DNA of 13,642 nucleotides from Treponema sp. (GTDB lineage Bacteria > Spirochaetota > Spirochaetia > Treponematales > Breznakiellaceae). The notes below the pieces were generated by a model. That model did no database searches, was not told where the DNA came from, and was given only the letters and a program-made list of their open reading frames with translations. How positions within the stretch are numbered: the stretch's first letter is position 1; the number at the start of each line of letters is the position of its first letter. Shown here piece by piece: positions 3,955 through 13,642 of this stretch. Location of the stretch: assembly GCA_031278755.1 (NCBI GenBank), contig JAITJV010000197.1, forward strand, positions 1-13,642. The letters run 5' to 3'. The position numbers were made by a program, and so were the translations under genes.

Positions 3955-4470
3955 TTAAGGAGATCTGGTGAAGGAATCCAAACCATAATAATAATCATCG
4001 CCGTCCCCTATGGTGAATTCCGCTTCCGCTTCTTCCTGTGTCGGTCTGCCGCTATCGCCCGGCGCTCCGTCGTTGGCTACGCACATATCCGCGGTACCTA
4101 TGCCATCGCTGAAGTTCTCCCAATAAAGGACGCAGAAAGAGCCTACCGGACTACCGTAGGAAAGGGTGTTCATCGTATATTGAAACGTGATATAACCAGT
4201 GCCGCCGCCTGCGCCGTCATCGCGTACATGAACAATATTTCCTGAATATCCGGCGACTCCCCCGTAGCCGGCCGTGAATTTCGCCGCGCTTATTTCGTAT
4301 TCGTCGCCCATTGGCGAAAGCCATTTTCCGGTAAGGGCGGCGGGCAGCGGGATAGTGCTGTCCTTCGTATACAACAAGAGTCCGCTGCCTGTGCTTGTAT
4401 CGCAGCCGGCGGAAAAAAGAAACGCGGCGAGGCACAGCGCGCCGATAAAAAGACGGGTTTTCTTCAACAT
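3955..4470 (-). CDS. Small lipoprotein in a cobalamin-riboswitch operon
   Basis: A 171-residue predicted lipoprotein, first gene of the B12-controlled unit. The signal peptide (MLKKTRLFIGALCLAAFLFSAGC) ends in a lipobox FSAGC with lipidated Cys at residue 23. The mature part starts with a short linker (DTSTGSGL), then a compact beta-rich domain: LTGKWLSPMGDEYEISAAKF, then SGNIVHVRDDG, GYITFQYTMN, GSFCVLYWENFSDG, and EEAEAEFTIGDGDDYYYG near the end. I recall similar GxW...YEI...YW domains in lipoproteins of gut treponemes, but name no function. No haem, iron or BtuG/BtuH-like motif is seen. It could capture corrinoid at the cell surface and pass it to the receptor encoded 14 nt downstream; this is inference from gene order. 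Start ATG is preceded by AAAGGA six bases upstream (4482-4477), part of which lies in a hairpin. Lys-Lys-Thr-Arg at the N-terminus fits the chosen start. Confidence 0.82.
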   Translation of the reverse strand: MLKKTRLFIGALCLAAFLFSAGCDTSTGSGLLLYTKDSTIPLPAALTGKWLSPMGDEYEISAAKFTAGYGGVAGYSGNIVHVRDDGAGGGTGYITFQYTMNTLSYGSPVGSFCVLYWENFSDGIGTADMCVANDGAPGDSGRPTQEEAEAEFTIGDGDDYYYGLDSFTRSP

Positions 4471-4478
4471 GATTTTTC

Positions 4479-4505
4479 CTTTCTGCGGATATCCGCCGCA
4501 GAAAG
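4479..4505 (-). promoter_or_regulatory. Ribosome-binding-site sequestering hairpin (riboswitch expression platform)
   Basis: A perfect 10-bp inverted repeat, CTTTCTGCGG (4505-4496 read on the minus strand) and CCGCAGAAAG (4488-4479), with a 7-nt loop. The 3' arm contains the first part of the AAAGGA Shine-Dalgarno (4482-4477) of the lipoprotein gene, whose ATG starts at 4470. No U-tract follows, so it looks like a translational rather than a transcriptional switch. It lies about 115 nt after the aptamer end, as expected for the switching part of a cobalamin riboswitch. Confidence 0.75.
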
Positions 4506-4620
4506 CCGGGGAAGGATATGCCTTACCGGAGAAAGAACGCCCTTATGTTATTGATGTGAAATCTTCTCAAGGCCCAGTCCCCGAAGCCTTAGAACAGGAT
4601 ACGAACCCAAACGGATCCGC

Positions 4621-4860
4621 CGTATACCAAAGTTTCCTGGCTTGGGGGTTGCGCATACACGGATACATTCGGCAAGGCGCACGTATCCATGTACGAGCGG
4701 TTTTCCGTCGGTCTTCCCAATCAAATTGATCAGTGGCCGGGAAATACCTGGCGGCATTTCCCCGCGGTTTCTGACGAAACGGCGCTTACGGAATTGGATG
4801 CCCGGTTACAGTTACGGGATAGCGGGGGAATTGCACCCCACTTCCTTTGAAATATACAGG
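4621..4860 (-). promoter_or_regulatory. Cobalamin riboswitch aptamer
   Basis: On the minus strand the conserved cobalamin aptamer blocks occur in the right order: AAAGGAAG then GGGGTGCAATTCCCC (4838-4824, hairpin), GCTATCCCGTAACTGTAACC (4823-4804; family consensus is close to GC.G..CCCGCAACTGTAA), GCCACTG (4737-4731), GGGAAG (4718-4713) and the B12 box AAGCCAGGAAACTTTGG (4643-4627). The ends pair: GTATA..CAAAG (4857-4845) with CTTTGGTATAC (4632-4622) forms P1. Other helices are visible: CCCG/CGGG around the ACTGTAA loop, GGGAAATGCC/GGTATTTCCC (4762-4739, one wobble), ATCA/TGAT between GCCACTG and GGGAAG, and a long arm CGTACATGGATAC/GTATCCGTGTATG near 4695-4653. Paired arms with G-U wobbles argue for RNA rather than protein coding. 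It should bind adenosylcobalamin or a related corrinoid and repress the lipoprotein and receptor genes when corrinoid is plentiful. The large P6 side and the extra arm suggest the AdoCbl-type class, which I cannot prove. Confidence 0.93.
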
Positions 4861-4863
4861 TTC

Positions 4864-4892
4864 AGTATAGAAACGGTATGGAAAAAGATCAA
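4864..4892 (-). promoter_or_regulatory. Sigma70-type promoter of the riboswitch-lipoprotein-receptor unit
   Basis: Minus strand TTGATC (4892-4887), a 17-nt spacer and TATACT (4869-4864). Transcription is expected to begin around 4857, exactly at the 5' arm of riboswitch P1. The hexamer match, ideal spacing and position relative to the aptamer support each other. Confidence 0.75.
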
Positions 4893-4893
4893 G

Positions 4894-4899
4894 TATAAT
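4894..4899 (+). promoter_or_regulatory. Candidate -10 box for the divergent lactonase-ribulokinase operon
   Basis: A perfect TATAAT at 4894-4899 on the plus strand, 53 nt before the lactonase ATG; transcription would start near 4906. No good -35 hexamer stands 16-18 nt upstream (the sequence there is close to AAACGG), so an activator may be needed or the call may be wrong. It directly abuts the -35 box of the divergent B12 promoter (4892-4887), so the two promoters may compete for polymerase. A GC-rich inverted repeat (GGCCC..GGGCC, 4902-4914) lies just downstream in the leader. Confidence 0.4.
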
Positions 4900-4952
4900 T
4901 CGGCCCCGCCGGGCCAATCGACACAAAAAATAAAACATGTTATTCTTGCGGT

Positions 4953-6020
4953 ATGGTATCAGGGTATATAGGAACCTACACCGAAGGCGCAGGCGGCAAA
5001 GCAAGGGGAATTTATTCCTTTGCCATGAACGCGGCGGGCCTTATTGAAGATTTCCGTCTCGCGGCCGAATCGGTGAATCCGTCCTGGCTTGTCCTTTCGC
5101 CCGGCGGAAAATTTCTCTATGCGGCAAACGAGACCGCCTCATACGAAGGCAAAGGCGGTTCCGGCGGCGTCTCTGCTTTTGCCGTGGGCGCGGATGGCGG
5201 GCTTTCTTTTCTTAACGGCAGACGGTCCGGGGGAAAGCATCCGTGCCATCTTGCGATCAGCAGGGAAGGGAACCGTCTTATAGCCTCAAACTATACAAGC
5301 GGCGTTCTTTCGGTATTTCCCCTTGATGAAAAGGGCTTTCTCGGCGGCTGTATGCAGACGATACGCTTTACCGGCGGCGGCCCCGTCAGGGACAGGCAGG
5401 AAAAATCCCACGCCCATTCTTTCATGTTCGATAAGGATTACCGTTACGGTTTTGCCTGCGATCTTGGTTCAGACAGGATCATGGCTTACCGTTTTGACGG
5501 GAACGCAAAGCTCCCCCTTGTTCCCGCCGATCCTCCCTTTTATCCGGCAAAGCCCGGCTCGGGGCCGCGGCACGGGGCGTTCTTTCCATCCGGAACTTTT
5601 GCCTATTGTCTTAATGAACTTTCGTCAACGGTGGATGTGCTGCGCTACGATCTGGAAGGCGGTTTCAAAAAGATCCAGAGTATTTCGGCTCTTCCCCGAA
5701 TAAAAAAAGCCGCGCCCAGCATCGCGGCTGCGGTGCGCATAAGCGGCGATGGTAAATTCATCTATACGTCAAACCGCGGCCGGGACACCATCAGCCTTTT
5801 CAAAATAAAGAAAAGCGGCATTCTGGAATTTGTTGAAAGCTCAGGCTGCGGCGGAAAACATCCGCGGGATTTTATCATTGATCCTGAAGGCAATTTTCTT
5901 ATCGTCCTTAACAAGGATTCGGATAACCTTGTTATTTTTGGCATCAGCCGTTCGACGGGCAGGCTTAAAAAAGTGCGCGAGTATCCGGTCCTGTCGCCTG
6001 TTTCCATTGTTTTCAGGTAA
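4953..6020 (+). CDS. Lactonase, seven-bladed beta-propeller (6-phosphogluconolactonase YbhE/Pgl type)
   Basis: 355 residues, the usual length of this family (about 330-370). The protein opens with GYIGTYTEGAGGKARGIYSF, the standard first blade, and shows the family markers: VNPSWLVLSPGGKFLYAANE (42-60), GGKHPCHLAISREGNRLIASNYTSG, SHAHS (152-156), GSGPRHGAFFPSG (203-214), NELSSTV (221-227), SNRGRDTIS (273-281) and GKHPRDFIIDPEGNFL. It probably hydrolyses a sugar (phospho)lactone in the cytoplasm; there is no signal peptide. Whether the substrate is 6-phosphogluconolactone or an aldonolactone cannot be told from sequence. It is the first gene of a plus-strand operon and stops 3 nt before the ribulokinase ATG. 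The chosen ATG has no Shine-Dalgarno (preceding bases TTATTCTTGCGGT), but an earlier in-frame start is absent and the first beta strand begins at residue 4. Confidence 0.87.
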   Translation: MVSGYIGTYTEGAGGKARGIYSFAMNAAGLIEDFRLAAESVNPSWLVLSPGGKFLYAANETASYEGKGGSGGVSAFAVGADGGLSFLNGRRSGGKHPCHLAISREGNRLIASNYTSGVLSVFPLDEKGFLGGCMQTIRFTGGGPVRDRQEKSHAHSFMFDKDYRYGFACDLGSDRIMAYRFDGNAKLPLVPADPPFYPAKPGSGPRHGAFFPSGTFAYCLNELSSTVDVLRYDLEGGFKKIQSISALPRIKKAAPSIAAAVRISGDGKFIYTSNRGRDTISLFKIKKSGILEFVESSGCGGKHPRDFIIDPEGNFLIVLNKDSDNLVIFGISRSTGRLKKVREYPVLSPVSIVFR

Positions 6021-12282: not shown

Positions 12283-12771
12283 TCAATCCGCCGGCGGTTT
12301 ACTCGTTTTAACAATCCGTTGATTCGTACTTCCCCTGAACGCAAGGGAAGGGGAATAGTTTTCTTCTTCAAAACGGCCGTCAACGACAACGTCGATATAG
12401 TCCAGACACGGCCTAAGCGAATCCTGCGCGGTCAATTCTTCGTATAAATATCCGGTATAGCACCAGATATTCATGCGGGTTGCAGCTTTAATTATTTTTA
12501 AAAGCGCCTGAAAAGAAGAAGGGTAATAAAAAGGATCGCCGCCTGAAAAGGTTATCCCGTCAAGCAGCGGATCTGAATTAATCTCTTGTATGATCCTGTC
12601 AAGGTAGTCTTCCGTCAGTAATTTTCCTGCCGACGGGTCCCAGCTTTCGGGATTATGGCACCCCTTGCAATGATGCCGGCATCCCGCCAGATAAATGGAA
12701 TACCGCAGCCCTTCGCCGTCCGAAATTGTTTCACGGTATATTTTTAATATACAGACAGGATCGTCAAACAT
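12283..12771 (-). CDS. nrdG: Anaerobic ribonucleotide reductase activating protein (radical SAM)
   Basis: 162 residues from the ATG at 12771, giving MFDDPVCILKIYRETISDGE. An upstream in-frame start at 12837 would add 22 residues that read as NrdD tail sequence on another frame, so the shorter start is preferred; GAAGAGA lies just upstream. The radical SAM cluster motif is CX3CX2C at Cys31, Cys35 and Cys38 (GCRHHCKGCHNPESWD), followed by GITFSGGDPFYYP, the SAM-contact GGDP motif. YTGYLYEEL and IDVVVDGRFEE are usual for NrdG. It uses a [4Fe-4S] cluster and S-adenosylmethionine to place a glycyl radical on NrdD in oxygen-free cells. Its start overlaps the end of nrdD by 8 nt, so expression is coupled. 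The final residues KTSKPPAD are a common-looking but variable tail. Confidence 0.93.
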   Translation of the reverse strand: MFDDPVCILKIYRETISDGEGLRYSIYLAGCRHHCKGCHNPESWDPSAGKLLTEDYLDRIIQEINSDPLLDGITFSGGDPFYYPSSFQALLKIIKAATRMNIWCYTGYLYEELTAQDSLRPCLDYIDVVVDGRFEEENYSPSLAFRGSTNQRIVKTSKPPAD

Positions 12772-13642
12772 GCGTCTCTTCGGGCTGCGGACGCAGGGAA
12801 GCCGGTTGTACGGCGCCGCTTTCGGCGGCCTGCACATGCTTTACCCGATCTTTTTCCTCCGCCTGTTTGGCGGAATTCCATGTTTCAAGACTCCCGGTTA
12901 AATAGCCGGTAATACGGCGCATCCGTACAATGTTATCACTTTTGCAGATCGGGCAATTCGAATAAATTATTCCCCTATACCCGCAATGACTACAGGTATC
13001 GACAGGGTGGTTTATCGAACCATAGCCGATATTTTCCTTCCGCATTTGACGTACGATTTTTAAAATAACCGATATGTTTTTTTTCGCTTCTCCGTCAAGT
13101 TCAACATAGGTAATGTGCCCGCCTTTGGTAATCGCGTGAAAGGGAGCTTCCAGTTTTATTTTTTCGGCGGCGGTAATGTGTTCTTTTACATCAATATGAA
13201 AAGAATTTACATAATAATCCCTGTCCGTCACGCCCGGAATAATACCGTATTTCTTTTTATCCAGTTTTGTGAAACGTCCCGAAAGGCCTTCCGCGGGCGT
13301 GGCAAGAACGGAATAATTCAGGTTGTATTTTTCTTTATATTCGTCTACGACCTTATTCATTTCAAGTATGGCGTCGTAGAGCGTTTGGTAGGCGCGCTTG
13401 TTTGTTCCATGCCCTTCGCCATAGATGGCGGCCATGGCGTTGTGTCCGCCGATAAATCCGATTCCAAGAGTGCCGGAATTAATTACGTCTCCTATTCTGT
13501 CGGCCGCCCCAAGAGCGCCTCCGTCTTTCCAGATATTGTTCCCCATCATAAAGGGAAATTGTTTTGCAAGCGCCGTCCGCTGATACTGATAGCGATCGTA
13601 GAGCTGCTCGGCTATCATTTGAGTTGTTTTACGCACCGATTC
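12764..13642 (-). CDS. nrdD: Anaerobic ribonucleoside-triphosphate reductase, C-terminal part (5' truncated by window edge)
   Basis: The frame is open to the window end, so the N-terminal part (roughly 400 or more residues of about 700) is outside; the GTG at 13636 is only an internal codon. NrdD makes deoxyribonucleotides without oxygen using a glycyl radical. The fragment contains GNNIWKDGG, INSGTLGIGFIGGHNAMAAI, LNYSVLATPAEGLSGRF, then DRDYYVNSFHIDV and GHITYVELDGE. The four-cysteine zinc site is CSHC (around 12990) and CPIC (around 12950). The radical glycine is in RRITGYL, codon at 12905-12907. Forty-six residues follow that Gly, about 15 more than in E. coli NrdD; the extra tail (QAAESGAVQPASLRPQPEET) is low-complexity and overlaps the start of nrdG. 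The presence of NrdDG indicates growth without oxygen. Confidence 0.95.
   Translation of the reverse strand, partial: ESVRKTTQMIAEQLYDRYQYQRTALAKQFPFMMGNNIWKDGGALGAADRIGDVINSGTLGIGFIGGHNAMAAIYGEGHGTNKRAYQTLYDAILEMNKVVDEYKEKYNLNYSVLATPAEGLSGRFTKLDKKKYGIIPGVTDRDYYVNSFHIDVKEHITAAEKIKLEAPFHAITKGGHITYVELDGEAKKNISVILKIVRQMRKENIGYGSINHPVDTCSHCGYRGIIYSNCPICKSDNIVRMRRITGYLTGSLETWNSAKQAEEKDRVKHVQAAESGAVQPASLRPQPEETHV

Follow-up and report, generated by a model that had tools for sequence, protein, structure and literature searches.

A cobalamin riboswitch with probable translational control of a lipoprotein and BtuB-like receptor operon in a Treponema relative

The DNA analysed here is a stretch of 13,642 nucleotides from Treponema sp. 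(GenBank assembly GCA_031278755.1, contig JAITJV010000197.1), referred to as the window. On its minus strand, the gene for a predicted lipocalin-like lipoprotein is followed by the gene for a BtuB-like TonB-dependent receptor, and a non-coding stretch of 482 bases (4471-4952) lies between the lipoprotein ATG (4470) and a divergent lactonase-family open reading frame (ORF) that starts at 4953. An earlier note on this DNA had given the same length for the stretch and read it as a complete vitamin B12-sensing leader, in which a promoter is followed by a cobalamin aptamer and a hairpin over the ribosome-binding site (RBS). A covariance-model search of the minus strand with Rfam RF00174, which that note had put forward as a check, gave 46.6 bits against a gathering cut-off of 31.5, so the aptamer passed. 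The riboswitch is a member of the known RF00174 family, with a layout like those published, and its features are collected in Table 1.

Table 1. Features of the riboswitch leader and the operon downstream of it
Feature	Position	Strand	Basis or detail
Promoter -35 hexamer TTGATC	4887..4892	minus	promoter scan; position conserved
Promoter -10 hexamer TATACT, spacer 17 nt	4864..4869	minus	promoter scan; position conserved
Predicted transcription start G, first base of P1	4857	minus	inferred, 7 nt past the -10 hexamer
Cobalamin riboswitch aptamer (RF00174)	4622..4857	minus	46.6 bits; Rfam span 4892-4612
P1 5′ strand GUAUAUU	4851..4857	minus	pairs with 4628-4622
L5 loop UCCCG	4815..4819	minus	sequence comparison
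B12-box stretch	from 4643	minus	precedes P1 3′ strand
P1 3′ strand GGUAUAC, after B12-box stretch	4622..4628	minus	pairs with 4857-4851
P13 hairpin, putative partner of L5	4568..4591	minus	loop L13 CGGGGACU at 4583-4576
UUCCCCGG, complementary to L13 loop; candidate element of the B12-free fold	4506..4513	minus	minimum-energy fold, conservation
Perfect 10-bp hairpin over the ribosome-binding site	4479..4505	minus	stem 4505-4496/4488-4479, loop 7 nt
Shine-Dalgarno AAGGA, 6 nt before ATG	4477..4481	minus	sequence
Lipoprotein gene, 171 aa, predicted lipocalin-like	3955..4470	minus	matches to solved lipocalin-like structures
TonB-dependent receptor, BtuB-like, 663 aa	1949..3940	minus	PF07715 and PF00593

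RF00174 is the sole above-threshold Rfam match within the window, and the match covers the model at its full length (positions 1-189, E = 3.5e-09), with two long inserts of 46 and 48 nt in the arms. The leader fold is more stable than all of 100 shuffles (z = -3.08). The window shares with the family the core, the B12 box, L5, the long arm and the putative P13/L13 kissing loop, and the alignment to the full model takes in its long arm, where GCCACUG and GGGAAG occur. This RF00174 type is called class I, and such a long arm is the mark of the adenosylcobalamin (AdoCbl) type of class I. The same arm argues against a natural ligand other than AdoCbl, such as a methyl-, hydroxo- or pseudo-cobamide, an alternative that we regard as doubtful. 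Broad corrinoid sensitivity, which would favour such a ligand, has been reported for cobalamin riboswitches (PMC9600662; this and the other papers are cited from excerpts of their text).

Relatives of the leader are common: of 195 genomes in the family, 143 match RF00174 at E ≤ 0.001 and 138 do so above the cut-off. The comparison set holds 140 rows, corresponding to 139 distinct sites with the window included; 100 regions were fetched from the best-scoring rows rather than from all matches, the other loci came from earlier searches, and the duplicate sites L144 and L146 were removed. L068a is the same site as L039 and is doubly counted in the tallies of P1, P13, L5/L13 and start calls. The window's type of P1, with TTTGG after the B12 box, is present in 110 rows, CTGCC in 8 and other sequences in 21, and the B12 box went undetected by pattern in one row of the 140.

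All seven pairs of the P1 closing helix form in the window, as they do in 89 of 108 rows, and the inner pairs covary: pair 2 is T-A in 74 and C-G in 14, and pair 4 is T-A in 75, C-G in 11 and G-C in 7. Downstream of P1, 95 of the 105 rows in which 100 nt or more of sequence is available have a hairpin with a CGNGG loop (P13), against a mean of 4.1 and a maximum of 8 in 30 dinucleotide shuffles; five other loop motifs give 2-9. Among 77 distinct P13 hairpins the closing pair is T-G in 38, T-A in 19 and C-G in 16, with G-C or A-T further out. An xCCCG core in L5 accompanies the P13 candidate in 112 of 114 sites (TCCCG 78, ACCCG 21, GCCCG 13, GTCCG 2) and the loop reads CGNGG in 102 of the 114, although both scans were partly selected for those very motifs. 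In the window, L5 is complementary to the L13 bases CG(G)GGA (4583-4578), which would give five pairs with the third loop base bulged, and a bulged kissing loop is known from the A. halodurans cobT riboswitch (PMC10653944). The positions flanking the L5/L13 core showed no consistent covariation, an A before CCCG in L5 standing opposite an A in L13 in 18 of 19 cases. Together, the sequences suggest that the P13 loop can kiss L5 and that P13/L13 is the switch element. The loop of the RBS hairpin (CGGAUAU) was tried as L13 and can pair with UAUCC at L5, but the conserved partner of L5 is P13. Two leaders from one genome (L141 and L151) have GTCCG in L5 instead of xCCCG, and the P13-like loop of L151, CGATGAC, may restore the kissing loop by compensation, with two bases bulged.

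The TTGATC-17-TATACT promoter described in the earlier note was recovered by our scan. It matches 9 of 12 consensus bases, which alone is near chance (two such sites in the region, 0.8 ± 0.9 in shuffles). Its place is conserved: when sigma-70-like sites were sought within 80 nt, with 3 of 112 leaders omitted (two anchorless, one too short), 93 of the 108 distinct leaders, among which the window is counted, had their best site ending 17-21 nt ahead of the GGAA core, and 87 scored at least 9 of 12. With the doubled site counted, 94 of 109 rows fall at 17-21 nt, 86 of them at 18 or 19, and 88 of the 94 score at least 9, whereas 50 mononucleotide shuffles place 10.7 rows at 17-21 nt and 1.2 with a score of at least 9. 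In 11 of the remaining 15 rows the best site lies at distance 5, and 10 of these 11 also have TTGAC at the usual place (TTGAT in L084). It is this conserved place, not the score of the window site alone, that argues for the promoter being real. With the start placed 7 nt past the -10 hexamer, transcription is expected to begin with the first base of P1, so that the coincidence of promoter start and P1 start claimed earlier agrees with a position-locked promoter and with the P1 pairing across rows.

The RF00174 model has a hairpin 5′ of the core, a variable element on which membership does not depend; this hairpin was not found in the window, where the promoter takes its place and the corresponding columns fall on promoter sequence. 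In other families of the phylum, a promoter at 17-21 nt was seen in none of 26 sites (from 30 loci, 4 omitted) and lay at least 30 nt upstream in 25 and at 2 nt in one, a scan that used a 150-nt search stretch and a different anchor rule and is not strictly comparable with that of the lineage. Several of these sequences show a hairpin directly before the core, for example GGCGCCCTTCGGGGC. With the promoter mostly at 17-21 nt in the lineage and, in all but one site of the other families, at least 30 nt upstream, the window's lineage therefore lacks the model's 5′ hairpin. The first 35 bases aligned by Rfam (4892-4858) are promoter DNA and not RNA, which suggests that the Rfam boundary is about 35 nt off for this lineage. 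The earlier description of a complete leader is to be extended by P13/L13, of which it had taken no account, and the 5′ part of the match is to be read as promoter.

At the other end of the leader, the perfect hairpin that had been said to cover half of the lipoprotein Shine-Dalgarno (SD) was found as described, covering AAG of AAGGA. When the 387-nt leader is dinucleotide-shuffled, such a 10-bp stem arises once in 300 versions; for the last 70 nt it arises once in 1000. The hairpin also occurs in three congeners, where pair 6 is C-G rather than the U-A of the window, a compensatory change. It is separate from P13, with 62 nt between them, and this arrangement has parallels in the family: among 102 P13 rows of the window's type, 71 are distant-start, 17 have the start codon no more than 25 nt from P13 and 14 could not be called, the start calls being automatic, with some starts and P13s misassigned. 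The SD lies within a local hairpin in many relatives.

The lack of a U-run, also claimed earlier, holds, and no terminator-like site lies between 4857 and the start codon; the sole one on the minus strand (4917-4900) is upstream of the promoter. This weighs, along with the local SD hairpins of the relatives, against a real riboswitch that acts on transcription, either with a translation block exposing the message to Rho or with a weak hairpin after P13 terminating. We consider such a mechanism quite unlikely, even though a weak hairpin followed by U, GAGAAAAA..CCG..CGGUAUUUUUU, follows P13 in some relatives, and a translation block that favours Rho has been described for riboswitches generally (PMC11260477). 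The element is found in a number of distant-start leaders (e.g., L128, L142 and L148). The window retains little of this element, whose A-run could pair with a U-run on either side of P13.

We therefore return to translation as the controlled step. The riboswitch probably controls translation of the operon for the lipoprotein and the receptor, with a B12-bound lock of L5-L13 and P13 lowering it. Translational control is suggested by the lack of a terminator or U-run, the SD in a hairpin and a family-wide coupling of P13 and SD in folding models. RNA synthesis would start at G4857, and bound cobalamin would bring L5 to kiss L13 and lock P13. With P13 locked, the downstream leader would favour the SD-covering hairpin, and less lipoprotein and receptor would be made. 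When B12 is absent, P13 would yield to a long-range helix formed by L13 and the P13 3′ strand with the downstream leader; in the window the partners would be UUCCCCGG and stretches before it, and opening of the start site would be favoured. The unconstrained minimum-energy fold of the window has this form, with the L13 stretch paired to 4513-4506 and the P13 3′ strand to the downstream leader, and it is more stable than the P13 fold by roughly 2-3 kcal/mol, a balance that the kissing loop could tip. The TTCCCCG within this region is identical across the four species of the genus compared.

Sampled folds of 49 distant-start leaders bear on the coupling (the 49 come from 54, omitting L130, L161, L163 and L169, whose P13 or start is dubious, and the duplicate L068a). 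The SD was more open without P13 by more than 0.05 in 25 leaders, and the reverse held in 3. When repeated with controls, the mean difference in SD openness was 0.083, whereas 588 control versions, in which the sequence from P13 to the SD had been shuffled, averaged 0.005 (range of the 12 replicate means, -0.027 to 0.028). Across these leaders, P13 formation thus goes with a hidden SD, which supports repression by B12. In a duplex test of L13 and the P13 3′ strand against the region before the SD, the family mean z was -0.79, with 21 of 49 leaders below -1.

Several points weigh against this reading. For the window itself, SD openness is 0.44 without P13 and 0.37-0.39 with it, a difference of 0.05-0.07 that is not above that of its own 12 shuffles, and the same duplex test gives z = +0.76, worse than shuffles. 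That L13 and the P13 3′ strand simply pair with the region before the SD was accordingly set aside as proof for the window and is a tendency of the family only. The RBS hairpin, with a local fold of -16.6 kcal/mol, remains formed in both computed folds, which leaves its opening unexplained, and nested folding is unable to represent a kissing loop. The three congeners lack the outermost pair of the RBS hairpin, one of them also pair 2, and the counts come from related sequences, with kinship uncorrected, and are hence not independent. The persistent hairpin and the window's coupling are also what would be expected if the aptamer bound B12 while the hairpin stayed constitutive with the SD half covered, regulation being weak or lost, and the RF00174 score is low beside the values of up to 86.7 reached in relatives. 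Such decay strikes us as improbable, given that core, P1, L5, P13 and promoter are all there and that four species of the genus retain both TTCCCCG and the RBS hairpin. For the preferred translational switch, the aptamer, promoter position, P1, P13 and RBS hairpin emerge from the sequence and its comparison; ligand binding, the direction of control and the opening step are predictions, and the opening step is weak for the window leader alone. The observation made in the earlier note is confirmed and its interpretation supported.

Published switches follow a similar logic. In E. coli btuB and env8HyCbl, kissing stabilizes P13 and promotes formation of the RBS hairpin (cited in PMC10653944). The P. 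megaterium metE riboswitch is similar to the window in that L5-L13 stabilizes P13 and the 3′ side of P13 can pair instead with a sequence further downstream, but its output is a terminator whereas that of the window would be an SD hairpin (PMC10653944). The M. tuberculosis metE switch, in which an aaTIR hairpin carries L13 and aTIR lies about 60 nt downstream, is likewise translational, with no intrinsic terminator, but differs in sequence, host and gene (PMC11260477). In the window, P13 is instead a short conserved hairpin that starts 51 nt past the beginning of the box, with the SD in a separate local hairpin.

The two genes downstream may serve B12 uptake. The lipoprotein has a lipobox that reads SAGC, and no Pfam or NCBIfam model matches it; it is predicted to be lipocalin-like from matches to solved lipocalin-like structures and from G-x-W at the first strand. 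Matches from the profile search were kept only at E ≤ 1e-15, as its tail drifted to unrelated ORFs (L021 and one ORF of the window). The best solved relatives of the receptor are 8p97 and 8p98, of which 8p98 bears the name vitamin B12 transporter BtuB. With TIGR01779 (vitamin B12 receptor), the best of 22 NCBIfam rows, it scores 87.1 bits, below the cut-off of 599.7, and we therefore call it BtuB-like only. Of 29 loci found by routes other than the receptor search, 25 have a receptor-like frame after the lipoprotein gene; the count of 29 in 35 includes loci from that search, where the receptor is present by construction. Among the receptor's relatives, 19 of 21 named contigs are titled Treponema sp., and such assemblies presumably come from termite guts.

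A B12-type TonB receptor and a lipoprotein in one locus are also seen in Bacteroides, with BtuB and BtuG or BtuH (PMC10404256, PMC8941943, PMC6143338), but the window lipoprotein, predicted to be lipocalin-like, differs in having no Pfam family. One of 33 members of its family matches DUF6929 at 0.008, and the BtuG and BtuH sequences were not directly compared. We view the lipoprotein as a candidate B12-capture protein. More tentatively, relatives of Treponema may have a lineage-specific riboswitch subtype in which the 5′ hairpin is lost and promoter and aptamer are fused, with +1 at the first base of P1, and which in many genomes drives a dedicated B12-capture operon in which a new lipocalin-fold lipoprotein hands B12 to a BtuB-like receptor. 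The newer parts are the lineage trait, namely a promoter fused to P1 with no 5′ hairpin, and the lipocalin-like lipoprotein; in a literature search covering few subscription journals, and in the text it returned, we found no paper on such a Treponema cobalamin riboswitch or on a B12-binding lipocalin from spirochaetes. The RNA to be tested is exactly defined, with its start at G4857, P1, L5, L13 and a separate SD hairpin, and the uncharacterized lipoprotein family is a candidate B12 scavenger of spirochaetes in a setting analogous to that of Bacteroides BtuG and BtuH.

Elsewhere in the window, a BspA-type leucine-rich-repeat protein (PF13306, 1042-1932) adjoins the receptor gene on the opposite strand, and the ORF reached by profile drift has an LPG_synthase_C domain and is unrelated. 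The source assembly is incomplete (1.73 Mb in 322 contigs, 62% complete) and contains a second RF00174 match, on contig C191 (3292-3487, 57.8 bits), with none further. This riboswitch precedes positions 2-144 of the NRDD model at the end of its contig (L001 1804-2793), and the right end of the window (12764-13636) holds NRDD positions 305-562. The two NRDD parts probably belong to a single nrdD gene divided between the contigs, which would place a B12 riboswitch before a B12-independent reductase.
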